NCBI GenBank assembly: GCA_016125425.1
Contig: WGLT01000018.1
Span: forward strand, 1-64,000
Origin: Alphaproteobacteria bacterium
Lineage (GTDB): Bacteria > Pseudomonadota > Alphaproteobacteria > Caulobacterales > Parvularculaceae
Length of the DNA stretch: 64,000 nt
Direction: 5' to 3'
This document shows, in pieces, positions 9,727-50,190 of the stretch. Both the position numbers and the translations under genes were made by a program. Below the pieces are notes generated by a model. The model saw only the letters and a list, made by a program, of their open reading frames with translations. It did no database searches and had not been told where the DNA came from. Each line of letters starts with the position of its first letter. The stretch's first letter is position 1.

Positions 9727-11039
9727 GCGGCGCGCGCGTCCGTCTGGAAGCGCCGGAGAAGAAACTCGCTGATCTCGACGAGCACCCGCTCGGCGCTCGC
9801 TTCAGCGGCCTTTTGCGCCGCGTTCGCCATCGCAAGCCGCGTCTTCTCATCGGCGATGAGGCGGCGCACCGCGGTCGCAAGCTCGCGATCATTGCGAACA
9901 AGCGCGCCGCCGCCTTTCGATCGCATTTCGGCGTAGGTCTCGCCGAAATTAAAAGTGTAGGGCCCGTGCAGAATGGCGCCGCCGAGCCGCGCCGGCTCAA
10001 GCGGATTGTGCCCGCCTTTCGGCGTCAGCCCGCCGCCGACAAAAGAGATTTCGCTCAGACGGTAGAAGACGCCGAGCTCGCCGAGCGTGTCGGCGATATA
10101 AACATCGGTTGCGGCGTCGATCGCTTCGCGCAGGGAGCGCTGGCGCGCGGACAGGCCGAAATCGGCTGCGAGGGCGCGCACTTCCGCGCCGCGATTGGGA
10201 TGACGCGGAGCGAGCAGGGTGAGAACGTCCGGAAAGAACCCCTTGAGAATCTTGTGGGCGGCGAATACCGCCTCCTCTTCGCCGGGATGCGTGCTCGCCG
10301 CGAGCCAGATCGGCCGCTCGCCGATTTCGGCGCGCAATGTTTCGATCGCGCCGGAAGGCGCGGGAAGAGGCGGCGCGGCGTTCTTCAGATTCCCGAAACA
10401 CATGACTTCGCGGCCCGACAGCGCCGAAAGTCGCTCCGCATTCTGACGATCCTGAGCGATGATCGCCTCGAACGCCGAAAGCACATAACGGATCGTTTTC
10501 GGCTTTCGCTTCCATTCCTCGAACGATTTCGGCGAAACGCGCCCATTGATGAGCGCCATGAACGGAATTCTCCGGCGCGCGCTCAAAATGAGATTGGGCC
10601 AGAATTCAGACTCGACGAAGAGCGCCGCATCCGGGCGCCAGTGATCGAGAAAGCCTTCGACGAAACGGGGATGATCGAGCGGGATATATTGGTGGAAGGC
10701 GCCCTCGGGTAGACGCTCGGCCATCAGTCTGGCGGAGGTCGTGGTTCCCGTCGTCACGAGAAAGCGCCAATCCGGGCGACGGGCGCGCAGCCTTTCGACC
10801 AGGGGCAGCACCGACAGCGATTCCCCGACGCTCGCGCCATGGATCCAGATGAGCTGACCCTCGGGGCGGGGGCGGCCCGGCACGCCGCGCCGCTCATTGA
10901 TCCGGTCCGGATCCTCCTTGCCGGCCTTGAGGCGGCGTTTCAGGGCGATTTCGGCGACCGGCCCCGCCGCTCGGCTCGCGACGCGGTAGAGCTTGAGGCC
11001 GAGGGGTTCGGCGGCTGTGGTTAGGGCGGTTTCGCTCAT
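9723..11039 (-). CDS. waaA: 3-deoxy-D-manno-octulosonic acid transferase
   Basis: A GT30-family Kdo transferase of about 438 residues adding Kdo to lipid IVA. Visible family marks are WIHGASVGE (acceptor-side catalytic Glu), TTGTTTSARL, FVESEFWPNL, CFGNLK and the C-terminal donor-site region GGGLTPKGGHNPLEPA. An N-terminal amphipathic helix serves as membrane association. The ATG at 11039 has AGGATG upstream at good spacing; the in-frame ATG at 11048 would place that site against the start codon. It heads the lpxK-lpxL cluster, and a DUF374 acyltransferase gene lies 71 bases upstream on the same strand. Confidence 0.94.
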   Translation of the reverse strand: MSETALTTAAEPLGLKLYRVASRAAGPVAEIALKRRLKAGKEDPDRINERRGVPGRPRPEGQLIWIHGASVGESLSVLPLVERLRARRPDWRFLVTTGTTTSARLMAERLPEGAFHQYIPLDHPRFVEGFLDHWRPDAALFVESEFWPNLILSARRRIPFMALINGRVSPKSFEEWKRKPKTIRYVLSAFEAIIAQDRQNAERLSALSGREVMCFGNLKNAAPPLPAPSGAIETLRAEIGERPIWLAASTHPGEEEAVFAAHKILKGFFPDVLTLLAPRHPNRGAEVRALAADFGLSARQRSLREAIDAATDVYIADTLGELGVFYRLSEISFVGGGLTPKGGHNPLEPARLGGAILHGPYTFNFGETYAEMRSKGGGALVRNDRELATAVRRLIADEKTRLAMANAAQKAAEASAERVLVEISEFLLRRFQTDARAA

Positions 11040-11110
11040 TGGCGTCATCCTAGAGCGCGTTTGCGAAAAGTGGAGGCCGGTTTTCGGAAAGAACGTGCGT
11101 CGAACAGCCT

Positions 11111-11845
11111 CTAGGCCCGCACGGACCCGTCCGGCGGCCGGCGCAGGGCGGCTTCGGCGCGCGCCCCGGCCTCGTCGAGGCGCTGTTCGAGTTCCCGACG
11201 CGCCGCTTCGGCGGCGCCGGCGTCCGCTTGGACGGGCACGCGCAAGGGCTCGGCGGCGGCGAAGGCGCCGCGCGAGAACGGCAAGGCGAGGAGAAACCGG
11301 TCCCAGCTATCGAGAAAACGGCCCCGCGTGACAGCGTAGGAAACGGGAAGGATCGGCGCGCCGGACAACTGGGCGAGCTTGATGACGCCGGGTTGAACCT
11401 TGCGCGCCGGCCCGCGCGGGCCGTCCGGCGTGACGCCGACGATTGCGCCGGCCTGAAGGGCGGCGATCATTTGCGCGATCGCGGGCGCGCCGCCTTTCTG
11501 TTTGAATTTCTTGCGGGGATCGGCCGTCGAACCGCGAATGAAGTCGATGTCGAAGCCTTTCACCGCGTCGGCGATGATTTCGCCGTCCCGATGGTGCGAA
11601 ATCAGCATGTAAACGCGCTTGGACGTCTCGCGGCGTAAGAGGGGACTCATCAACAGGCGCTGGTGCCAGAAAGCGAGAATGAAACCGTCCGGGGCTTCGA
11701 GAAGCGGATCAGCGAATTCGCGTCCGACAATGCGCCAGCGCGTCGTCGCGTCGACGAGCCGGATATAGGCCGCGATCGCGAAACTGGCGGCGCGCGCGGC
11801 GAGATCGCGCCGGGCGGCGGGTTGGGTGGGGCTCAACTCGACCAT
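11111..11845 (-). CDS. DUF374 family lysophospholipid-type acyltransferase
   Basis: A 244-residue acyltransferase of the DUF374 branch. It has a hydrophobic N-terminal segment (about residues 20-35), the family pair ILAFWHQRLL and ISHHRDGEIIA, and the substrate-loop signature TPDGPRGPARKV. In alphaproteobacteria this family commonly sits beside waaA and lpxK, and some members transfer very long or secondary chains to lipid A; that role is inferred from position. It is the first gene of the minus-strand lipid A run and is divergent from the MsbA-like exporter, which begins 88 bases away. The C-terminal third is Ala/Arg rich and probably helical. Confidence 0.82.
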   Translation of the reverse strand: MVELSPTQPAARRDLAARAASFAIAAYIRLVDATTRWRIVGREFADPLLEAPDGFILAFWHQRLLMSPLLRRETSKRVYMLISHHRDGEIIADAVKGFDIDFIRGSTADPRKKFKQKGGAPAIAQMIAALQAGAIVGVTPDGPRGPARKVQPGVIKLAQLSGAPILPVSYAVTRGRFLDSWDRFLLALPFSRGAFAAAEPLRVPVQADAGAAEAARRELEQRLDEAGARAEAALRRPPDGSVRA

Positions 11846-17531: not shown

Positions 17532-18247
17532 GAAAGCCTCCCCGACAGATGATAGAAATTGACGATCCATTCTGCGATCAGCCGGCGGTCGGTCGGCTTG
17601 GCGAGGCTTTCGAGCGCCGCCTCGACGGTTTCGGCCGGCATGCGGCCTTCGCGCGCGCGAAACAGCGCGGCCGAAAAGTCGGCGTCGAATTCGGGATGCA
17701 TCTGAAAAGAGATCGCCGGGCCCTGCGCATAGGCGAGCGCGCCGTAAGGCGTGAAGTCGGAGCCGGCGATCACGCGCGCGCCGAGGGGCGGCGCGACGAC
17801 CTGATCCTGATGCGAGACCACGCAGGACAAACGGCGCGCGGCGGGGCGCATCCAGTCTTCCTCGCGCCGGACTTCGTAATCATGCACGCCCGCCCCCCAG
17901 CCCTTGTCGGATTTGACGACATGGCCGCCAAAGGCTTTCGCCATCGCCTGATGGCCGAAACAGACGCCGACATTCGGCTTTCCCGCCGCCGCCATGTCAC
18001 GAATGAAGCCTTCGAGCGGGCCGAGCCATTCATGGTCTTCATAGACGCCATAGGGCGAGCCGGTGATGATCGCGCCGTCGATCGAAGAAACGGCAGGAAA
18101 GGGCGCGCCTTCGACGAGCGGATAGGTCTTGTAGCGGAATCCCGGCGCAAGCGGGGCGAGCATGCGCGCCATCATGTCCGGATAGAAGCCGAATCGTTTT
18201 TGCAGAAGGGGCGGCGGCGCGCCCGTCTCGATGATCGCGATCAGCAC
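17528..18247 (-). CDS. class I glutamine amidotransferase (GMP synthase-like, stand-alone)
   Basis: A 239-residue single-domain class I amidotransferase. The nucleophile elbow is GVCFGHQAM (Cys96), the oxyanion region is IITGSPYGVYEDHEW and the catalytic His-Glu pair lies in SFQMHPEFDADF. Stand-alone members include gamma-glutamyl hydrolases and amidotransferases of uncertain acceptor. It is coupled by ATGA overlap to the GST gene, so a role in gamma-glutamyl or glutathione-conjugate breakdown is attractive but inferred. No synthase domain is fused and no obvious acceptor enzyme is adjacent. Confidence 0.88.
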   Translation of the reverse strand: MLIAIIETGAPPPLLQKRFGFYPDMMARMLAPLAPGFRYKTYPLVEGAPFPAVSSIDGAIITGSPYGVYEDHEWLGPLEGFIRDMAAAGKPNVGVCFGHQAMAKAFGGHVVKSDKGWGAGVHDYEVRREEDWMRPAARRLSCVVSHQDQVVAPPLGARVIAGSDFTPYGALAYAQGPAISFQMHPEFDADFSAALFRAREGRMPAETVEAALESLAKPTDRRLIAEWIVNFYHLSGRLS

Positions 18248-41603: not shown

Positions 41604-42437
41604 TCAATCCCGCAAGAGCTCGTTCACGGAGGTTTTTGCGCGCGTCTTTTCATCGACGCGCTTGACGATGACTGCGCAATAAAGGCTGGGTCCGCCCTTC
41701 GCCGAGGGCAGGGCGCCTGGAACGACGACGGAATAGGGCGGCACCTCGCCATATGTGATTTCGCCCGTCGCACGGTCGACGATTTTGGTCGACTGGCCGA
41801 GATAAACGCCCATGGAAATGACAGAGCCTTCGCGCACGATGACGCCTTCGGCGACTTCCGAACGCGCGCCGATGAAACAATTGTCTTCGATGATCACGGG
41901 CGCGGCTTGCAAAGGCTCCAAAACGCCGCCGATGCCGACGCCGCCCGAGATGTGGCAGTTTCTGCCGATCTGCGCGCAGGAGCCGACAGTCGCCCAGGTG
42001 TCGACCATCGTCCCCTCGTCGACATAGGCGCCGATATTCACAAAGCTCGGCATCAATACGACTTTCGGGCCGATATAGGCGCCGCGCCGGACGGTCGCCG
42101 GCGGCACGACGCGAAAACCGCCGCGCGTGAAATCCTCCGCGCCGAGACTGATGAATTTCGAGGGCGCCTTGTCCCACCAGAAGCCCGCGCCGGGCCCGCC
42201 GGCGATCACATGGTTCGGATATAGGCGGAAGGACAGCAGCACGGCCTTTTTCAGCCATTGATGCACGCGCCAGTCCCGATCGCCCTTTTTCTCCGCGATG
42301 CGCGCCTTGCCGGAATCGAGCAGCGCGATCGCCTCGTTGACCGCGTCGCGCACGCCGTTCTTTGTCGTCGGGCCGATATTCTCCCGGTTGTCCCAGGCGT
42401 CGTCGATTACAAGGGCGAGGTCCTTATGGCTGGTCAT
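41604..42437 (-). CDS. dapD: 2,3,4,5-tetrahydropyridine-2,6-dicarboxylate N-succinyltransferase
   Basis: A 277-residue hexapeptide-repeat acyltransferase of the succinylase branch of lysine/diaminopimelate synthesis. N-terminal helical domain, then a left-handed beta helix with repeats such as [40 protein letters not shown] and the extended loop [15 protein letters not shown], all typical of DapD. Its start overlaps the stop of the nucleotidase gene as ATGA. lysC, the pathway entry enzyme, lies at the far end of this window and is not linked. Confidence 0.96.
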
Positions 42438-43171
42438 GCCTGTTCCTTAGCGTGTTGCGCGAACCCGGCTGCGGTTTCGCATCCCCTCAAAAATCCGGCG
42501 AGATCGTCCGTAATGTGATGAACGTAGTCGTAAGCCTCCCCGGGCCTGGCGGGACGCTTTTCATCCGGCTCATCGGCGATCCAGTCGGCCTGCGACGCGA
42601 CAAGCACGGTTGTCATTCCGAGCTCGAAGGCTTCTTTCAAATTATGTGCGATGTCCTCGAACATGGCGGCCCGCGACGGCGCGACCGCGTGGGCGGCGAG
42701 GAAGCGCTCGTAAGTTACGCGATGGGGCTTGGGCGTCCAGCCCGCTTCTTTGATGTCGAACACCTCGTCGAAGCAATGCGACAGGCCCAGCCGGCCCAAC
42801 ACATTCGCGGCGTGTTTGGCCGATCCGTTGGTGAAGACGAATTTGCGTCCGGGCAGGGCCTCGATCGCCGCGCAAAGCTCCGGCGCCGGGGCCACCGGCG
42901 TCAGATCGATGTCGTGGACGAAGGCCATGAAACGCTCGGGGCAGACATCGTGCTCGCGCATGAGGCCCGCCATGGTCGTGCCGTAGCGCACATAATAGTC
43001 CTTTTGCAGGCGGCGCGCCTCGTCGGGCCCGAGGCCCAGCTCCTCGCGGATGAAGGCCGCCATGCGCGAATCGATCTCGCGGAAGAGATTGCATGTCGCC
43101 GGGTAGAGCGTGTTGTCGAGGTCGAACACCCAGGCGTCGACATGGCGCAGATCGGGGCGGGGAGGCGTCAT
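42434..43171 (-). CDS. pyrimidine 5'-nucleotidase, HAD family
   Basis: A 245-residue HAD protein of the Sdt1/PPM1-like pyrimidine nucleotidase group: motif [17 protein letters not shown], motif [13 protein letters not shown], Lys in [13 protein letters not shown] and motif [27 protein letters not shown] in the cap is typical of this group, which dephosphorylates UMP/CMP or damaged pyrimidine nucleotides. Its coupling to dapD by ATGA overlap is conserved in alphaproteobacteria and useful for identification, though no metabolic link is known to me. Confidence 0.88.
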
Positions 43172-43326
43172 CGAAAAGGTCCTGTCGGGGCGGGGGCCCC
43201 ATCGGCGGCTCGTTTTGAGGCCAAAGAGCAGATATAGTGCCCGCGGGCTAGGGAGGCGTTCAACTCATTGATCCTTGTCTGCCGCGCGCGCGGATCTCCG
43301 CGCCCATCCGCCGCGCCTAGGCGTTT

Positions 43327-43352
43327 GTAACTTCTGCGCGCGCCCGCGCGAA
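43327..43352 (+). promoter_or_regulatory. ECF-type promoter 1 (autoregulation of the sigma factor)
   Basis: GTAAC (43327-43331) and CGAA (43349-43352) are separated by exactly 17 bases, 20 bases before the sigma factor start codon. The same two elements with the same spacing occur before both bufferin precursor genes, so the sigma factor probably reads its own gene. Confidence 0.8.
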
Positions 43353-43371
43353 TACCGAACAGGAAGACCCC

Positions 43372-43908
43372 GTGAGGCCCGACGAAGAGCTGCTCAGGAC
43401 GTTGATGATTAACGGACTCGAAGGCGATTCGCCGTCCTATGAGGCGCTTTTGCGCGCGCTCGCGCCTGTTCTGCGCGCTTATTTCGGCCGCCGTCTCGCG
43501 AGCGCGGCGCAGGATGCGGACGACCTCGTGCAGGAATCCTTGCTCGCCATTCACACGCGCCGGTCGACCTATGATCGGGAAAGGCCGTTCCTGCCCTGGG
43601 TCTATGCGATCGCGCGCTACAAGCTGGTCGACTATTTCCGCCGTCGCGGCGCGGCCGCGCCCGCCGAGGCGCTCGACGAACGCCATGCCGCCGCGGGGTT
43701 CGAGGAAGCCGTCGCCGCGCGCATGGATGTCGCCAGGCTGCTCGACAGCCTGCCGGCCAAACAACGCGCCGCGATCGAGGCGATGAAGCTCCGGGGCGAA
43801 AGCGTTGCGGATGCGACGCTCTCGACCGGGCTTTCGGCGGCGCATGTGAAGGTCTCGGTTCATCGCGGCCTCAAATCGCTCGCCGCGCGTTTTCGCAAGG
43901 ACGGGTGA
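43372..43908 (+). CDS. sigF: ECF sigma factor, SigF type (NrsF-linked)
   Basis: A 178-residue ECF sigma factor: region 2 with DADDLVQESLLAIHTRRSTYD and WVYAIARYKLVDYFRR, a short linker, and region 4 (LPAKQRAAIEAMKLRGESV, AHVKVSVHRGLKSLAARF). It begins with GTG after AGGAAG. The adjacent anti-sigma of the NrsF/DUF1109 type and the target operons (MNIO enzymes, DUF2282, DUF2063, DoxX) are those of Caulobacter SigF, which responds to metal stress such as chromate and cadmium. The stop is directly followed by the nrsF ATG. The GTAAC-N17-CGAA motif upstream and at both target operons is the evidence for its regulon. Confidence 0.9.
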   Translation: MRPDEELLRTLMINGLEGDSPSYEALLRALAPVLRAYFGRRLASAAQDADDLVQESLLAIHTRRSTYDRERPFLPWVYAIARYKLVDYFRRRGAAAPAEALDERHAAAGFEEAVAARMDVARLLDSLPAKQRAAIEAMKLRGESVADATLSTGLSAAHVKVSVHRGLKSLAARFRKDG

Positions 43909-44550
43909 ATGGACACCGATCTTCTTATCCGCAAGCTTGCGAGCGATCTGAAGCCGGTTCCGCGCCGGTCGATGGCGGCGCGGCTCTGCATCGGCGCGGC
44001 CGCGGGCGCGAGCCTTGCCCTGGCCGGCGTCGCTCTTGTTCTGGGGTTGCGCCCCGATCTTGCGCGCGCCGTATTCGGCTTCACGTTCTGGATGAAATTG
44101 ATTTATGTCGCCTCGCTCGGCGCCGGCGGGCTGCTGGCCAGCGTTCATCTCGCGCGCCCCGAGGCGCGGCCGACCAGCCGATTCTGGCTGCTCGTCGTTC
44201 CAGTCTTCGTCCTCGCCGACATCGCGGCTTGGCAGTTTTATTTCACCGCGTCGTCGCTCTGGCCGAAGCTCATCCTTGGCGACAGCGCGCGCGTCTGTTC
44301 GACCTATATTTTCTTGATTTCGATCCCGGTCTTTGCGGGCTTGCTGGTCGCCTTCCGCCGCTTCGCGCCGACGCGGCTGCGGGCGGCCGGGGCGGCGGCC
44401 GGTCTCGCGGCGGGGGGAATCGCGGCGAGCGTCTATAGCCTCCATTGCCCGGAAGTCGGGGCGGCCTTCGTGCTCATCTGGTATTCGCTGGGGATTCTCG
44501 CCGCCGCGCTCGCAGGCGCTGTCCTCGGCCCCTTTGTGTTGCGCTGGTAA
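43909..44550 (+). CDS. nrsF: NrsF-type membrane anti-sigma factor (DUF1109)
   Basis: A 213-residue protein with a short cytoplasmic N-terminus (DTDLLIRKLASDLKPVPRRS, the expected sigma-binding part) and six predicted membrane helices. Two Cys at residues 130 (ARVCSTYIF) and 180 (SLHCPEVGAAF) face the positions of the two conserved Cys known to matter for metal sensing in Caulobacter NrsF; a third, Cys27, is N-terminal. It starts immediately after the sigma stop, so equimolar coupled translation is expected. Inferred action: holds SigF at the membrane until metal stress alters the Cys pair. Confidence 0.9.
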   Translation: MDTDLLIRKLASDLKPVPRRSMAARLCIGAAAGASLALAGVALVLGLRPDLARAVFGFTFWMKLIYVASLGAGGLLASVHLARPEARPTSRFWLLVVPVFVLADIAAWQFYFTASSLWPKLILGDSARVCSTYIFLISIPVFAGLLVAFRRFAPTRLRAAGAAAGLAAGGIAASVYSLHCPEVGAAFVLIWYSLGILAAALAGAVLGPFVLRW

Positions 44551-44565
44551 CAACCGCGTGAGCGC

Positions 44566-44591
44566 GTAACCGCCCGCGCCGCCGCAGCGAA
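44566..44591 (+). promoter_or_regulatory. ECF-type promoter 2 (bufA2 operon)
   Basis: GTAAC (44566-44570), 17 bases, CGAA (44588-44591), lying 47 bases before the bufA2 ATG and just past the nrsF stop. The -35 element is extended to CGCGTAACCG, shared with promoter 3. Confidence 0.85.
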
Positions 44592-44638
44592 AAACGACTC
44601 GCCAATCCGGCTCAACCATCAGGGTGGAGGATATCCGC

Positions 44639-44929
44639 ATGATTACGCTGAAGACCGGCGCGACGCTCGCGTCCGCCGTCGCCATCTACGCTCTTGCGTC
44701 CGCGGCCAGCGCCGCGCCGGCGCCCGCCGGCTCGACCGGCGGCGCGCTCGGCGCCGCGGACACGGTCCATTGTTATGGAATCAATTCCTGCAAGGGCCAG
44801 GCGGACTGCAAGACGACTGCGAATGACTGCAAAGGCCAGAATTCGTGCAAAGGTCGCGGCTTCAAGGCGACGAAAGCCAGCCAATGTTTTGAAAGAGGCG
44901 GCGTTATCGGCGATTTGTCGGCGAGCTAG
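44639..44929 (+). CDS. bufA2: bufferin precursor, BufA2 family
   Basis: A 96-residue secreted Cys-rich peptide. Residues 1-26 form a signal peptide (ALASAASAA before the mature part), then a Gly/Ala linker and a core with six Cys at 45, 51, 57, 64, 70 and 83 ([32 protein letters not shown]). This is the BufA2 pattern of bufferin-type metallophores: ribosomal peptides whose Cys are converted by the partner MNIO enzyme into heterocycles that bind copper or other metals in the periplasm. GGAGG stands 8 bases upstream of the ATG. The modifying enzyme and partner follow after a strong hairpin. The metal bound here is not deducible. Confidence 0.88.
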
Positions 44930-44936
44930 CCGAAAT

Positions 44937-44974
44937 CGGCCGCCCCGGCCGACCTAAGTCGGCCGGGGCGGCCG
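44937..44974. repeat. perfect 17-bp hairpin between bufA2 and bufB
   Basis: A 17-base arm (44937-44953, ending CCGGCCGAC) is perfectly complementary to 44958-44974 with a CTAA loop. It starts 8 bases after the bufA2 stop and ends 19 bases before bufB. No T-run follows, so it is not a standard terminator; it fits a 3'-end stabiliser or partial terminator giving much precursor and little enzyme. Confidence 0.85.
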
Positions 44975-44993
44975 CCAGGCGGAGGCGCTGGCG

Positions 44994-45830
44994 ATGGAAA
45001 CGCTCAATTCGTTCGACGGTTTCGGGCTCGGCCTCAGGACGGTCCATTTCAACGACTACCTGACACGCGAAATTCCGGTCGATTTCGTCGAGATCATCTC
45101 CGAAAATTTCATGATCGAGGGCGGTCGGCCCTTGCGCGTGCTCGATGCGGTGCGCGAGCGCCACGCCGTCGTCATGCACGGCGTTTCGATGTCGCTCGGC
45201 TCGGCGGGCGGTCTCGATCCGGATTATCTGGCGCGCCTCAAGGCGCTCGCCGAACGCGCTCGTCCCTTGTGGATATCAGACCATCTGTGCTGGACCGGCG
45301 TTGATGGGTTCAATTCGCACGATCTCCTGCCTCTGCCTTACACGGAAGAGGCGCTCGATGTCGTATGCGCGAATATCCGTTTCGCGCAGGATTTTCTGGA
45401 GCGCCCGATTCTTGTTGAAAACCCGTCGAGCTATGTCGCATTTTCGCAAAGCGTCATGACGGAGTGGGAGTTTCTTCGCGCTCTGTGCGAGCGCACGGGA
45501 TGTTATCTCCTTCTCGACGTTAACAATATATATGTGAGCGCGGTCAATCACGGGTTCGATCCTTCCGACTATATCGACGGCGCGCCTCTGGATCGCGTGC
45601 GCCAGATTCATCTCGCCGGACACAGCGTCAATGGCGATCTGCTGATCGACACGCATGATCACGACGTGCCGGAGCCCGTGTGGCGGCTTTATGAAACGGT
45701 GCGCCGCCGCATTCCGGAAGCGGCGGCGATGATTGAGCGCGACGACAATATTCCTCCGCTCGGTGATCTTCTCGGCGAACTCGATATTGCGCGCGCGCAC
45801 ACGCCGCGAAACAGGGAGGCGGCGGCGTGA
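44994..45830 (+). CDS. bufB: bufferin-modifying MNIO enzyme BufB (DUF692), cluster 1
   Basis: A 278-residue DUF692 protein, a multinuclear non-haem iron oxidase with a TIM barrel. Candidate iron ligands are spread as in the family: EIISENFM, VMHGVSMSLG, ISDHLCW, ILVENPSSY, LLDVNNIYVSAVN, IHLAGHS and THDHDVPEPVW, with IERDDNIPP near the end. It is expected to oxidise Cys of BufA2 into thiooxazole-type rings in the cytoplasm before export. GGAGG lies 8 bases before its ATG. Its stop overlaps the GTG of bufC as GTGA, so enzyme and partner are made together. Confidence 0.92.
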   Translation: METLNSFDGFGLGLRTVHFNDYLTREIPVDFVEIISENFMIEGGRPLRVLDAVRERHAVVMHGVSMSLGSAGGLDPDYLARLKALAERARPLWISDHLCWTGVDGFNSHDLLPLPYTEEALDVVCANIRFAQDFLERPILVENPSSYVAFSQSVMTEWEFLRALCERTGCYLLLDVNNIYVSAVNHGFDPSDYIDGAPLDRVRQIHLAGHSVNGDLLIDTHDHDVPEPVWRLYETVRRRIPEAAAMIERDDNIPPLGDLLGELDIARAHTPRNREAAA

Positions 45831-46597
45831 CGCTGGTCGCGCTTCAGCGCGCATTCGTCGCCGCCTTGCGCGATGGCGAGCGGCGCGCCCCCGCTTTTAT
45901 TCAAGGCGACGCGTCGACGAAATTCGGCGTTTACCACAACGCCTATCGCGCGCGGCTGCGCGACGCCCTACGGGAGAATTTCGAAAAAACCTGGGAATGG
46001 CTCGGCGACAGTCGCTTCGACGAAGCGATCTCGCGCTATATCGCGGCCTGCCCGCCGTCGAGCTGGACGCTCGCGGATTTCGGCGACCGATTTGCGGCGC
46101 TGCTTGACGGACTTTATCCCGCCGATCCGGAAGTCGGCGAACTCGCCTGGCTCGAATGGGAAATGCACCGCGCCTTTATCGGCGCGGACGCCGCGCCGGC
46201 GCGCGCTGAGACGCTCGGCGATATCAACTGGGAGAATGCGCGGCTGCGCTTTGTTCCGACCTTGCGGCTTCGCCCCGTTTCGACGAACGCCGGGGCGATC
46301 TGGTCGGCGCTGGCCGCAGGCGAGACGCCGCCCGCGGCTGAGGCCTTGCCGGCGTCGGCCGCTTTGTGCGTGTGGCGGCGTGATCTTCGGCCGAGCTTCA
46401 GGACGATCGATGCGCGCGAATTTATGGCGCTCCGAACCGCGCTTTCCGGCGTGTCTTTCGGGGATCTCTGTAAACTGATGTCGGCGGGACGCGAGGATCA
46501 TCAAACCGTCGTAGAAATAGGCTCGACTGTCGCACGTTGGCTCGCCGATGAGATGATCACGGAAATTTCAGCGCAAGCTGACGAATTTCCCGGCTGA
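45827..46597 (+). CDS. bufC: bufferin partner protein BufC (DUF2063), cluster 1
   Basis: A 256-residue protein of the DUF2063 type: an N-terminal helical domain (LQRAFVAALRDGERRAPAFI, VYHNAYRARLRDALRENF, WEWLGDSRFDEAISRYIA) and a C-terminal part proposed to bind the RiPP precursor leader. Older names call the N-domain a putative DNA-binding domain; in MNIO systems it acts as the precursor-recognition partner of BufB. It starts with GTG overlapping the bufB stop. The second promoter-driven operon begins 3 bases after its stop codon, so there is almost no spacer. Confidence 0.87.
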   Translation: MTLVALQRAFVAALRDGERRAPAFIQGDASTKFGVYHNAYRARLRDALRENFEKTWEWLGDSRFDEAISRYIAACPPSSWTLADFGDRFAALLDGLYPADPEVGELAWLEWEMHRAFIGADAAPARAETLGDINWENARLRFVPTLRLRPVSTNAGAIWSALAAGETPPAAEALPASAALCVWRRDLRPSFRTIDAREFMALRTALSGVSFGDLCKLMSAGREDHQTVVEIGSTVARWLADEMITEISAQADEFPG

Positions 46598-46600
46598 CGC

Positions 46601-46626
46601 GTAACCGTTTGTCTTTTCCTCGCGAA
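46601..46626 (+). promoter_or_regulatory. ECF-type promoter 3 (bufA1 operon)
   Basis: GTAAC (46601-46605), 17 bases, CGAA (46623-46626), 47 bases before the bufA1 ATG. Extended -35 CGCGTAACCG is identical to promoter 2. The spacer is T-rich here and C-rich there, so the conservation is confined to the elements. Confidence 0.85.
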
Positions 46627-46673
46627 TTCCTGATCGCCAGTTCGGCGCAACAAATAACGATGGAGAACTATCG

Positions 46674-46970
46674 ATGAAAACAGTCACGACGCGTATCGTT
46701 CTTGGGTCTGCCGCCGCTTGCGCGCTGACAGCGATTGCTGCGAGCGCGCCCGCGCACGCCGCCGACAAGATGGAGAAATGTTATGGCGTCGCGCTCGCCG
46801 GCCAGAATGACTGCAAAGCGGGCCCCGGCACGTCTTGTCAGGGTACGTCGACGGTCGATTATCAGGGCAATAGCTGGAAACTGGTGCCGGCGGGAACTTG
46901 TGAAAAAATCTCCCTGCCCGGCGACCGCCATGGGAGCCTGACGCCGCTCGACCGCGATCCGGGCAAGTGA
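46674..46970 (+). CDS. bufA1: bufferin precursor, BufA1 family (DUF2282)
   Basis: A 98-residue secreted peptide of the DUF2282/BufA1 type. A signal peptide (about residues 1-29, ASAPAHA) precedes [37 protein letters not shown] and KLVPAGTC; mature Cys are 36, 47, 55 and 76, the four-Cys pattern of copper-binding bufferin 1. The C-terminal dozen residues are polar. A GGAGAA ribosome site precedes the ATG. Unlike bufA2, it is joined directly to its bufB (stop and start overlap), with no hairpin between. Confidence 0.92.
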
Positions 46971-47845
46971 TGAGCGCGCTCGGCCAAAATTCGGCTCTTG
47001 CGCGCGCCGCAGGGGTCGGCCTGAAGCCGCAGCATTACGCGGCGGCGCTCGCTGGCGGGCATGGTCTCGGCTTCTTTGAAGTCCACGCCGAGAATTTCAT
47101 GAGCGCCGGCGGGCCGCCGCATCGCTGGCTGTCGGCGGTCCGGGCCGAGCACTATCTATCCGTACACGGCGTATGCCTTTCGGTCGGCGGGCGCGACGAT
47201 CTCGATGAAGCCCATCTTGCGCGTCTCGCCGAACTCGTGCGTCGCTATGAGCCGGCGCTCGTTTCCGAACACCTCGCATGGAGCGCTGATGGCGGCGTCT
47301 TCTTCAACGATCTCCTGCCGCCGCCGTTGACGCAAGCATCGCTCGCGCGCGCTTGCCGGCATGTCGATCAGATTCAATCGGCGCTTGGCCGCACGATCCT
47401 CATAGAAAACCCGTCTATTTATCTCCCCGGCACTCGCGGCGATATTCCAGAGCCGGAATTTCTGAACGAGCTTGCGCGGCGCACCGGCTGCGGCGTTCTT
47501 CTTGACATAAACAATGTCTTTGTAAGCGCTGAGAATGCGGGGTTCGATGCGAGCGCCTATCTCGACGCGATCGATCCCGCGAATGTCGGCGAAATTCATC
47601 TCGCCGGGCACGCAATCGACAACTTCGAAGGCGTGTCGATCCGTGTCGACAATCACGGCTCTGCGATGTGCGACGAAGTCGTGGCGCTGTACGAACGGTT
47701 TATCGCGCGCGCCGGCCCGCGCCCGACGCTGATCGAATGGGACCATGATACGCCGGCGTTTGACGTGCTGCTTGATGAAACGAGGCGTGCAAAAGTCGCC
47801 ATGATGCGCGCATTGTTCGAAGAGAGCGTCGCCGATGTCGCCTGA
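46970..47845 (+). CDS. bufB: bufferin-modifying MNIO enzyme BufB (DUF692), cluster 2
   Basis: A 291-residue DUF692 oxidase, second copy. Ligand segments: EVHAENFMS, SVHGVCLSVGG, VSEHLAWS, ILIENPSIYL, LLDINNVFVSAEN, IHLAGHA, RVDNHGSAM and IEWDHDTPAF. It is clearly diverged from copy 1 (THDHD is replaced by VDNHG) and is presumably matched to BufA1. The ATG at 46970 overlaps the bufA1 stop by one base (TGATG); a GTG three bases earlier is also possible. Its end overlaps bufC by 11 bases. Confidence 0.92.
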   Translation: MSALGQNSALARAAGVGLKPQHYAAALAGGHGLGFFEVHAENFMSAGGPPHRWLSAVRAEHYLSVHGVCLSVGGRDDLDEAHLARLAELVRRYEPALVSEHLAWSADGGVFFNDLLPPPLTQASLARACRHVDQIQSALGRTILIENPSIYLPGTRGDIPEPEFLNELARRTGCGVLLDINNVFVSAENAGFDASAYLDAIDPANVGEIHLAGHAIDNFEGVSIRVDNHGSAMCDEVVALYERFIARAGPRPTLIEWDHDTPAFDVLLDETRRAKVAMMRALFEESVADVA

Positions 47846-48620
47846 CGCACATTTTGATGAAGAGATTTATAGCAGGCTTGGCGCTGCGATCCTCGCGCGC
47901 GAGCCGGCGCGCAGGCTTGAGGGCGAAGAAGGCGATTCTTTGCGCGTCGCCGCGGGTGTTGCCGTTTATCGCAATAACGTACGCGCAGCTTTCCTAGGCG
48001 TTCTCGAAGACGCTTTTCCCGCAACCCGACGGCTCGTCGGGGCGGAATTCTTCCGCTTCGCCGCGCATGAATATTTTCACGCGAGGCGGCCATCCTCGCC
48101 GCTCGTTGCGCGTTATGGCGACGCCTTTCCGGATTTTCTCGAAAGTTTCGAGCCGGCGCGAAGTCTTCCCTATCTGCCGGATGTCGCGCGGATCGAAATC
48201 GCCTGGCTTTCCTCCTATCATGCGGCGGAAGCGCAAAGTCTTGAGACGGAGGAGATTGTCGCGCGCGCAAGCGTCGATCCCGACCGCGCGCGATTTCGTT
48301 TGCACCCGTCTGCGCAATTCTTTTCCTCGCGGTTTCCGGCGCATTCGATCTGGATCTATAATCGCGAGGAAAGGCAGGATAGGCTTGACCTTCCCGAGAC
48401 GGGCGAACAGGGCGTCTTCATTCGTCCGGACGCGGCCGTGCTTTCTTACCGGTTAGCCCCTGCGCCATTCGCGGCGCTGAAAAATCTCGCCGCCTCCCGC
48501 CCGCTGGGCGATGCGTTAAGCGCGGGGCTTGCGGCGCAGCCCGACGCCGCGCCCGCCGACATCCTGTCCGAACTGCTCTCTCTGCCCATCGTCATCGGCG
48601 TTCAAACGCCCGAATCCTAG
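47835..48620 (+). CDS. bufC: bufferin partner protein BufC (DUF2063), cluster 2
   Basis: A 261-residue DUF2063 protein. The N-terminal domain shows VYRNNVRAAFLGVLEDAFPA, RRLVGAEFFRFAAHEYFHAR and YGDAFPDFLESF, closer to the family consensus than copy 1; the C-terminal half (ARIEIAWLSSYHAAEAQSLE and onward) is the variable precursor-contact part. It overlaps the end of bufB by 11 bases and precedes doxX by 9 bases. It would present BufA1 to the cluster 2 BufB. Confidence 0.9.
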   Translation: MSPDAHFDEEIYSRLGAAILAREPARRLEGEEGDSLRVAAGVAVYRNNVRAAFLGVLEDAFPATRRLVGAEFFRFAAHEYFHARRPSSPLVARYGDAFPDFLESFEPARSLPYLPDVARIEIAWLSSYHAAEAQSLETEEIVARASVDPDRARFRLHPSAQFFSSRFPAHSIWIYNREERQDRLDLPETGEQGVFIRPDAAVLSYRLAPAPFAALKNLAASRPLGDALSAGLAAQPDAAPADILSELLSLPIVIGVQTPES

Positions 48621-48629
48621 GAGAAGTTC

Positions 48630-49121
48630 ATGCGCGCGCTTTATGCGTCTTTCGCACGTCTTTGCGACGCCATTCCTTACGCGCTTCTCGCGCTCGTCTG
48701 CCGCGTCGCTGCGGCCGTTCCCTTCTGGCGGTCCGGTCAGGCCAAGCTCGACGGCGCTGATTTTCTCGGCGTCAAATTCGAGCTGTTTCATTTAAAGGCG
48801 TCGCAGGCCTATCTCTTCGCTGAGGAGTTTCATTTCCCCGAGACGATTGCGCCGGCTGCGGCGCAACTCGCCGCCATCGGCGAGAACATATTAAGCCCGC
48901 TACTGATCATAGGGCTCTTCGGCCGCGCCTCGGCGCTCGGCCTTCTCGTCATGACCGCGGTCATCCAGTTTTATGTCTATCCGTCGGAGCTTTTGAATCC
49001 CAACGGGAACTGGTCGGAGCATCTTTTGTGGGCGGCGCCGCTTCTCGTCGTTCTCGGGCGCGGGCCGGGCGGGCTTTCCGCCGACGCATGGGCGCGGACG
49101 TTCTTCAGCGGGCGCCGCTAG
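48630..49121 (+). CDS. DoxX family membrane protein of the bufferin operon
   Basis: A 163-residue protein with four predicted membrane helices, DoxX type: VPFWRSGQAKLDGADFLG after helix 1, then GENILSPLLIIGLFGRASAL and TAVIQFYVYPSELLNPN. AGGAGAAG stands 6 bases before the ATG. DoxX proteins often close MNIO/DUF2063 operons; a role in quinone- or thiol-linked redox at the membrane has been suggested for the family but not shown. It is the last gene of the sigF regulon here, and a hairpin with a T-rich tail directly follows. Confidence 0.88.
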   Translation: MRALYASFARLCDAIPYALLALVCRVAAAVPFWRSGQAKLDGADFLGVKFELFHLKASQAYLFAEEFHFPETIAPAAAQLAAIGENILSPLLIIGLFGRASALGLLVMTAVIQFYVYPSELLNPNGNWSEHLLWAAPLLVVLGRGPGGLSADAWARTFFSGRR

Positions 49122-49146
49122 GGCGTCTCGCCTGGTTTTATTTTTT
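49122..49146 (+). terminator. probable terminator of the bufferin/doxX operon
   Basis: A short GGCG/CGCC stem with a TCT loop starts at the doxX stop and is followed by TGG and then TTTTATTTTTT. The stem is only 4-5 bp, but the 10-of-11 T tail is convincing. It overlaps the end of the convergent DUF1036 gene. Confidence 0.5.
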
Positions 49147-50190
49147 CGACGCCGTCGGCGCAGTTTTGCCGTCCTGCGCGATTGGCGGCGCGACGAACAT
49201 GTTCGGCATGAAATCAAAAGTCGTCGACACAGCGCCTCCTATGTCGACGCGTTTGAAAACGGCAGTATCGAGATCCTGATCGGCGCAGCTTTCGGAGTTG
49301 GAGACGTCGAATTTGACGGCGTTGATGCAGAAGGATTTGTCGCCGCCGGCGAGCCGGCGCTCGCCGCGGCCGTCCTCCATCGCCGCATAGACGTAATAAT
49401 GATCCTTGGTGAGTTGGCCTTTGATGATCTTGTCGCACTGGCCGGGCGCGAGGCGCCACCAGCCCTTGGAATCGTAACCGTCCTTGTCTGAAGGGATTGC
49501 GATCGCGCTCCAGATCGGGGCTTCGGTCTTGTTGCAGTAGAAGAAGCCGAGCTTTGCTTCGCGCGCATTCGCGTCCTGAATCAGGGAATCGATCAGGTCG
49601 TCGTCGATCGTCGCCGATTCAGGCAGGCCCTTTTCCTTGCGGTATTGCAGAATGAGATGCTGGGTGTCGCGGCCGAGCTGCCCGTCAATCGCCGTCACCT
49701 TTTTGCCGACGTCGTAGAGAAGCCGCTGCACGCCCGCGACCTCGGCGCTGTAGACGGTGAAATTCGCGGCCTCGACGAGATCGGTCTGCCAGTTGCCGCC
49801 GGCCGCCGCCGTCACGTCGACGCCGAAGAAATTGCGCTGGCGGGCGGGATCGTCGCGGCAGACTTCCTGATTGCGCAAATTGAAAAAGCCCGTGGGCTCG
49901 ACGCAGAGCGGCGTGTCGCCCGACCAGGTGCGCAGGGGCCCGCGATGGCCGGGGATCGCTTCGGCGTAAACGAAATAACGTCCCGGATTGGTTTGTTCGG
50001 TCAGGACCACCTTGCACTGGCCGGGACGCAGCCGCCACCAGCCGCGGGTCGTCAGCCGGTCGCCGTCGACATAGCCGATCGCCGCTTCGAGCACATAGCT
50101 CGACTTGTTGCAGAAACTGTATTTCGCCTCGGCGCCTGTCGCAGCAAGGGAAAACAGGGCCGCGACGGCGATAAGAAGAACAGAACGCAT
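49138..50190 (-). CDS. exported protein with two DUF1036 domains
   Basis: A 350-residue secreted protein: signal peptide (about residues 1-22), DUF1036 domain 1 (YSFCNKSSYVLEAAIGYVDG, GWWRLRPGQCKVVL, YFVYAEA), a helical linker resembling a peptidoglycan-binding-like segment (GVQRLLYDVGKKVTAIDGQL, IDDDLIDSLIQDAN), and DUF1036 domain 2 (FFYCNKTEAPIWSAIAIPSD, GWWRLAPGQCDKII, YYVYAA). Paired Cys in each copy suggest disulfides. The linker, between LYDVGKKVTAIDG and LIQDAN, looks like the SPOR-unrelated DnaJ-type periodicity seen in peptidoglycan-binding helices, so cell-wall association is possible. Function of DUF1036 is unknown. The gene is convergent with the bufferin operon. Confidence 0.85.
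   Translation of the reverse strand: MRSVLLIAVAALFSLAATGAEAKYSFCNKSSYVLEAAIGYVDGDRLTTRGWWRLRPGQCKVVLTEQTNPGRYFVYAEAIPGHRGPLRTWSGDTPLCVEPTGFFNLRNQEVCRDDPARQRNFFGVDVTAAAGGNWQTDLVEAANFTVYSAEVAGVQRLLYDVGKKVTAIDGQLGRDTQHLILQYRKEKGLPESATIDDDLIDSLIQDANAREAKLGFFYCNKTEAPIWSAIAIPSDKDGYDSKGWWRLAPGQCDKIIKGQLTKDHYYVYAAMEDGRGERRLAGGDKSFCINAVKFDVSNSESCADQDLDTAVFKRVDIGGAVSTTFDFMPNMFVAPPIAQDGKTAPTASKK

Follow-up and report, generated by a model that had tools for sequence, protein, structure and literature searches.

A condensed SigF bufferin regulon, very probably inserted as one island, in a genome of the Parvularculaceae

The first 64,000 nucleotides of contig WGLT01000018.1 (assembly GCA_016125425.1), called the window in what follows, contain at 43327-49121 on the forward strand three units in the same orientation: sigF-nrsF, which encodes an extracytoplasmic function (ECF) sigma factor and its anti-sigma factor, and the operons bufA2BC and bufA1BC-doxX, each of which encodes a bufferin precursor together with a maturase that belongs to the multinuclear non-heme iron-dependent oxidative enzymes (MNIO). 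The question raised by this locus is whether one sigma factor commands two bufferin operons of different type as a single switch, and how the whole set came to lie together in one place. The answer proposed here is that the locus is very probably a complete, condensed SigF (ECF16) bufferin regulon, which was inserted as one island and which would act as a copper-stress switch for two modified peptides.

Genes, promoters and extent of the regulon

The initial annotation had placed a sigma factor, an NrsF protein and two complete buf operons in this order on one strand, and the family searches (Pfam and NCBIfam) bear it out, with a family-level match for every gene of the island:

43372-43908, + strand: sigF, ECF sigma factor (GTG start; Sigma70_r2/r4 match)
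43909-44550, + strand: nrsF, membrane anti-sigma factor (PF06532, 3.4e-66)
44639-44929, + strand: bufA2, six-Cys bufferin precursor of the Cys-Lys type (NF050166, 97.7 bits at a cut-off of 60)
44994-45830, + strand: bufB2, MNIO maturase with Asp251 (MNIO_BufB match)
45827-46597, + strand: bufC2, DUF2063 partner protein (family match)
46674-46970, + strand: bufA1, four-Cys DUF2282 bufferin precursor (PF10048, 6.6e-27)
46970-47845, + strand: bufB1, MNIO maturase with His259 at the signature site (overlaps the bufA1 stop codon)
47835-48620, + strand: bufC1, DUF2063 partner protein (family match)
48630-49121, + strand: doxX-family membrane protein gene (family match)

NrsF lies above the Pfam cut-off, but reaches only 157.7 bits against the 300 of the narrower NCBIfam equivalog. 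Its Cys130 and Cys180 are by position Cys131 and Cys181 of Caulobacter NrsF, both of which matter in that protein (PMC3511200), and an ECF sigma factor next to an NrsF with two conserved Cys identifies the pair as SigF/NrsF (ECF16). A precursor recognized by the BufA2 model, an adjoining MNIO BufB with its conserved residues and a DUF2063 partner make bufA2BC a Buf2 cluster, while the four-Cys DUF2282 precursor, MNIO, DUF2063 protein and DoxX make the other operon a Buf1 cluster. Both BufB proteins exceed the MNIO_BufB cut-off of 310 bits (NF050167), with 367 and 348 bits. The Cys counts, six in BufA2 and four in BufA1, are those of the mature peptides, and the signal peptide of BufA2, judged by eye, is Sec-like.

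The motif that had been noticed at equal spacing before sigF, bufA2 and bufA1 is present as three exact sites, all with N17:

43327-43352, + strand: GTAAC-N17-CGAA of sigF-nrsF (exact; profile score 23.4; 19 nt to the start codon)
44566-44591, + strand: GTAAC-N17-CGAA of bufA2BC (exact; profile score 20.6; 47 nt to the start codon)
46601-46626, + strand: GTAAC-N17-CGAA of bufA1BC-doxX, just past bufC2 (exact; profile score 19.6; 47 nt to the start codon)

When the motif is loosened to N15-19 and counted in the window only, the result is not significant, with three sites where 0.85 are expected and three or more in 7 of 100 shuffles. In the genome-wide search that the initial annotation had suggested, the exact motif occurs four times in the 2.87 Mb assembly, compared with 22 times for a reversed-pattern control, and three of the four sites are those of the island, the fourth lying within an open reading frame. 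In relatives, counted where the precursor match exceeds 70 bits and at least 200 bases lie upstream (73 bufA2 and 19 bufA1 loci), 13 of 14 bufA2 loci with NrsF have the motif ahead of the gene, compared with 5 of 59 that lack NrsF (p 1.3e-9); the same comparison for bufA1 gives 11 of 12 against 3 of 7 (p 0.04). The spacing is specific as well, since upstream of the 73 bufA2 genes N17 is found 18 times, N16 three times, and N12-15 and N18-22 not at all. The genome-wide rarity, together with the NrsF association and the spacing in relatives, rejects a chance occurrence of the motif.

The sites of bufA2 and bufA1 fit GTAACC-N16-CGAA exactly, which is the mapped SigF promoter of Caulobacter (PMC3511200) and the sequence that the RpoE7 promoters of Sinorhizobium meliloti resemble (PMC6180224), whereas the sigF site has T for the sixth base C. 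Kohler et al. report little autoregulation of Caulobacter sigF, and the sigF site of the window may therefore matter less than the other two.

How far such a regulon extends beyond the island was examined with relaxed forms of the motif. A one-mismatch scan of the genome gives 85 sites, the three of the island included, compared with 132 for the reversed control, and thus no enrichment. With a profile derived from 43 promoters that belong to relatives, the highest score among 82 pieces outside the island is 17.6, which is under the 19.6-23.4 of the island sites though near the lowest training score, 18.0; this profile was trained on exact matches, so that one-mismatch sites score low by construction and some of those elsewhere in the genome may still be regulon members. 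The YedY/MsrP family (Oxidored_molyb), a further SigF target in Caulobacter, is without a match in the genome, which is 96.9% complete. From the scan without excess and the missing YedY/MsrP match it follows that the SigF regulon of this host is probably just the island, and the latter result also makes "self-contained", the word used in the initial annotation, an apt one. Its central idea, that a single SigF switch serves two bufferin operons in a compact locus, each operon with its own BufB/BufC, is supported by the genes and motifs, as far as these can speak for regulation.

By analogy with the Caulobacter system, the locus would work as follows. Metal stress, most likely periplasmic copper, would inactivate the membrane anti-sigma factor NrsF by way of its two Cys, and the freed SigF would bind GTAAC-N17-CGAA, so that its own operon, bufA2BC and bufA1BC-doxX are transcribed. 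A BufB/BufC pair would then modify the Cys of each Sec-targeted precursor, probably into thiooxazoles, and the modified peptides would be exported to chelate copper in the periplasm. The likeliest signal in nature is copper and not Cd or chromate, because both SigF-controlled buf operons of Caulobacter rise under Cu and a sigF::Tn5 mutant is Cu-sensitive (PMC8224329).

Enzyme pairs and the bufA2-bufB2 hairpin

Given two precursors and two BufB/BufC pairs, does each pair serve its own precursor? Both BufB proteins align with MNIO structures (3bww, 8hci, MbnB) and keep 19 of 19 conserved His/Asp/Glu/Asn positions. They differ in the alignment column of a selectivity site described in PMC13097082. 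There BufB2 has Asp251, the residue typical of Cys-Lys enzymes, which the Buf2 clade shares in 49 of its 54 rows; BufB1 has His259, in a Buf1 clade that has Thr or Gly in 19 of 24 rows and Asp in 2. The two residues hint at separate enzyme preferences. It is also possible, though less likely than not, that the pairs are redundant, with BufB2/BufC2 or either pair modifying both precursors and bufB1C1 kept by history. The difference at the selectivity site speaks against such redundancy, as does the finding that FonBC, a related pair, did not accept those of the substrates tried in which a charged residue follows the Cys; FonB variants at the matching site, however, remained active (PMC13097082), and the bufferin authors argue that Buf1 and Buf2 are similarly modified (PMC12452194).

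Relatives supply an argument for sharing. Exactly one MNIO was found in 14 of 23 chosen genomes, several of these 14 being drafts or metagenome bins; 11 of them have both precursor genes in a single locus, and 2 more hold bufA1 with bufA2 undetected. The single enzyme of the 11 belongs to the Buf2 clade and retains Asp251, and in one-MNIO genomes one pair must serve both precursors, or one precursor stays unmodified. The 11 genomes are from the sphingomonad group (L057, L059, L065, L066, L068, L069, L071, L074, L081, L095 and L105). Of the two modifying systems described in the initial annotation, the separate BufB/BufC genes of each operon thus stand, with Asp251 and His259 as a hint of separate use, while strict pairing is weakened by these 11 of 23 genomes. 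Its description of the six-Cys and four-Cys peptides as chemically distinct is weak as well, in view of the argument for similar modification.

At its two central Cys, BufA1 of the window (46674-46970) reads NDCK and TSCQ, the counterparts in three congeners being NDCA and TSCE. By eye, DCK in BufA1 was considered as a mark of buf2 linkage, and was dropped because several one-enzyme genomes carry DCA.

A second feature concerns the amounts of peptide and enzyme:

44938-44973, + strand: GC-rich hairpin with a perfect 16-bp stem and a 4-nt loop, between bufA2 and bufB2

The 64-nt gap in which it lies folds at -54.1 kcal/mol (z -6.3), and the hairpin is unique within the window. Among relatives the bufA2-bufB2 gap has z <= -2 in 49 of 65 cases (six of 71 gaps, shorter than 30 nt, were left out), whereas stretches upstream of bufA2 reach this value in 13 of 65 cases, and stretches within bufB and within bufA2 in 3 and 4 of 65. 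A second, class-wide sample gives 15 of 23 for the gap, which in three of the 23 pairs is long and takes in a second precursor, and 0 of 23 inside bufB. The stem sequences differ among loci, so that the structure, and not the sequence, seems to be what is conserved. Such a hairpin would lower the expression of the enzyme relative to the precursor and thereby probably hold the precursor in excess. The buf1 genes of the window instead overlap, which leaves no room for it.

An alternative is a terminator-like or REP-like (repetitive extragenic palindromic) element that plays no role in bufferin stoichiometry, and this is a real, if lesser, possibility. The form of the hairpin varies, with at least five T in the next ten bases in only 23 of 65 loci, and the buf1 gaps of the family, shorter than 30 nt in 7 of 14, have z <= -2 in 4 of the other 7, so that hairpins may not be confined to Buf2. 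Against this, the hairpin recurs between the same two genes in loci of many kinds, with unlike stems, in both samples, and has a single copy in the window. The available text of the bufferin survey (PMC12452194) contains no mention of a hairpin, stem-loop or terminator, and none was found by a full-text literature search, whose coverage did not extend to the original bufferin paper.

An island at a conserved junction

The regulon fills a gap between two genes that adjoin in relatives:

43172-49137, no strand: island, 5,966 bp extra between the HAD-hydrolase and DUF1036 genes
42434-43171, - strand: left flank, gene of HAD-hydrolase type, followed by dapD (names presumed from the sequence)
49138-50190, - strand: right flank, DUF1036 gene (family match)
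49117-49136, + strand: terminator-like hairpin with a run of T, at the end of the island (weak when taken alone, since the region has 10 patterns of this kind and chance would give 8.7)

In six of eight congeners, which are six of the seven with a DUF1036 match, tblastn places the HAD and DUF1036 genes 25-81 nt apart. A DNA search finds fragments of both on one contig in at least 48 of 61 other family genomes, 19-932 nt apart, and the distance that remains after the unaligned gene ends is -41 to 157 nt; these counts take only the 48 genomes with both fragments on one contig and leave the other 13 uncounted. The boundaries of the island are thus plain from the comparison with relatives. The initial annotation, whose interpretation as a whole is partly supported, could not reveal the insertion and leaves the bufA2-bufB2 hairpin unmentioned.

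The two halves of the island seem to differ in origin. BufA2 is above the NF050166 cut-off in 1 of 62 family, 5 of 398 order and 21 of 385 class genomes, counts that all include the genome of the window itself, and five other family genomes match weakly, below the cut-off; NF050166 gave no match in the C. vibrioides control genome, although the survey authors describe Buf2 there, so that these counts may be low. In a BufB tree, which keeps only part of the more distant rows, all 15 other MNIO matches of the family fall on the Buf1 side, with BufB1 of the window among them, while BufB2 lies within the Buf2 clade and has no close relative. It follows that the buf1 half is of a local type, whereas the buf2 half seems to be a newcomer to the family and, we infer, was acquired from outside it. 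For the sigma factor the trees are less telling. Single-gene trees of SigF and NrsF, from which re-fetched or short rows were left out, give no firm placement, and the pair leans weakly, without firm support, to those of sphingomonads.

Several points weigh against the regulon having arrived as one inserted unit that responds to copper. The GC content of the island genes, 0.59-0.67, shows no contrast with the 0.64 of the window, and the longest direct match between the two island ends is 7 nt, where shuffled ends give a mean of 7.2, so that neither a foreign composition nor a repeat beyond chance makes an insertion mechanism visible. G008 and G002 have nrsF-bufA1BC-doxX without buf2 in another context than that of the window, from which it follows that the island may in part be native, having moved to this site. 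In the joint SigF-NrsF tree the grouping with sphingomonads has a support of only 81/73 and carries a long-branch warning, and in approximately unbiased (AU) tests a grouping with G008 alone gives p-AU 0.048 and one with G008 and G003 p-AU 0.08. Finally, RpoE7 of S. meliloti, a sigma factor of the same group, is not activated by H2O2, CdCl2 or chromate (PMC6180224), and the signal may therefore vary.

That the island was instead ancestral to the family at this junction and was lost elsewhere is very unlikely: buf1 operons are present in several family genomes and missing in others, so that losses may happen, but with the junction empty in at least 48 of 61 genomes, and with buf1 of G001 and G008 on a different contig from it, a single gain is a simpler account than repeated loss. 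Neither flanking gene appears on the G002 contig. In G002 (L042), two nrsF genes lie about 7 kb apart (10218-11383 and 17552-18190), one with its own sigF and one adjoining buf1.

As one contiguous 6-kb piece, the island would allow the whole bufferin pathway, from signal to product, to be transferred and studied. The two enzyme pairs and two precursors of the window, set beside the one MNIO and both precursors of sphingomonads, provide a natural comparison, and the recurrent bufA2-bufB2 hairpin is a testable element for balancing a small peptide against its iron enzyme. A broader statement, that the whole SigF regulon has been condensed into a transferable one-unit cassette and that Buf2 operons generally carry a conserved RNA hairpin which sets the ratio of peptide to enzyme, is plausible, but our confidence in it stops somewhat short of the balance point.

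Relation to known systems

Among the best 80 BufB2 loci of the matches listed, NrsF occurs in 17, and in 8 it stands directly ahead of bufA2 or bufB2, with the motif between in all 8; the exact gene order of the window occurs in none of the 80, and one locus (L134) has two complete co-directional buf operons without sigF. No NrsF match was found in 22 Buf2 regions of the class-wide sample, where buf1 and buf2 stand in tandem in L292 and L295 and in mixed order in L287, so that SigF-linked buf2 is a minority arrangement. In L056 and L061, bufB2C2 lies behind nrsF and the motif with no bufA2 detected between, and L056 has bufA2 elsewhere on the contig with a motif of its own. Marine Gammaproteobacteria (L084, L086, L088, L089 and others) have bufA2 frames with 12-13 Cys, which fit the 12-Cys class of the survey.

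The closest functional parallel is Caulobacter crescentus/vibrioides (CC3252-3257, CC2907-2905, CC2748), with the same kind of sigma/anti-sigma pair, a promoter GTAACC-N16-CGAA that equals the GTAAC-N17-CGAA of the window with C first, and one SigF for two buf operons, one of which ends in doxX (PMC3511200, PMC8224329). Kohler et al. describe both Caulobacter precursors as DUF2282, and the Buf2 status of one rests on PMC12452194. Caulobacter keeps its second buf operon and MsrPQ at separate loci, whereas in the window sigF-nrsF and the two buf operons form one contiguous stretch, and no Oxidored_molyb (YedY/MsrP) gene could be found in the genome.

Sphingobium, Novosphingobium and Sphingomonas loci on chromosomes and large plasmids (L057, L059, L065, L068, L081, L166, L167) have sigF-nrsF followed by bufA2BC as in the window, with the motif between nrsF and bufA2 in those scored; unlike in the window, bufA1-doxX is divergent and without bufB1C1, an arrangement that two sphingomonad plasmids carry. 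The plasmid pASTEX01 of Asticcacaulis excentricus (L168) unites complete buf1 and buf2 with sigF and nrsF in one locus, as in the window, but its buf operons are divergent, and sigF and two successive nrsF genes follow bufC2.

The precursor families, BufB/BufC partners and DoxX of the window are those of the Buf1 and Buf2 clusters in the MNIO survey of Antoine et al., which, in its available text, assigns sigma/NrsF genes to Buf1 and not to Buf2 clusters (PMC12452194), whereas those of the window directly precede the Buf2 operon. This rule fits most of the Buf2 loci examined, but not the SigF-linked group of the window, the sphingomonads and Asticcacaulis, in which Buf2 operons can directly adjoin SigF/NrsF. 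The regulon logic itself is not new, since SigF control of two buf operons and their induction by copper were already shown in Caulobacter (PMC3511200, PMC8224329). What is new is the packaging, with the whole SigF bufferin set together in one 6-kb island at a junction that is empty in many relatives. The biology, then, is known, and the locus of the window is set apart by its compact island, its SigF-linked Buf2 operon and its hairpin.

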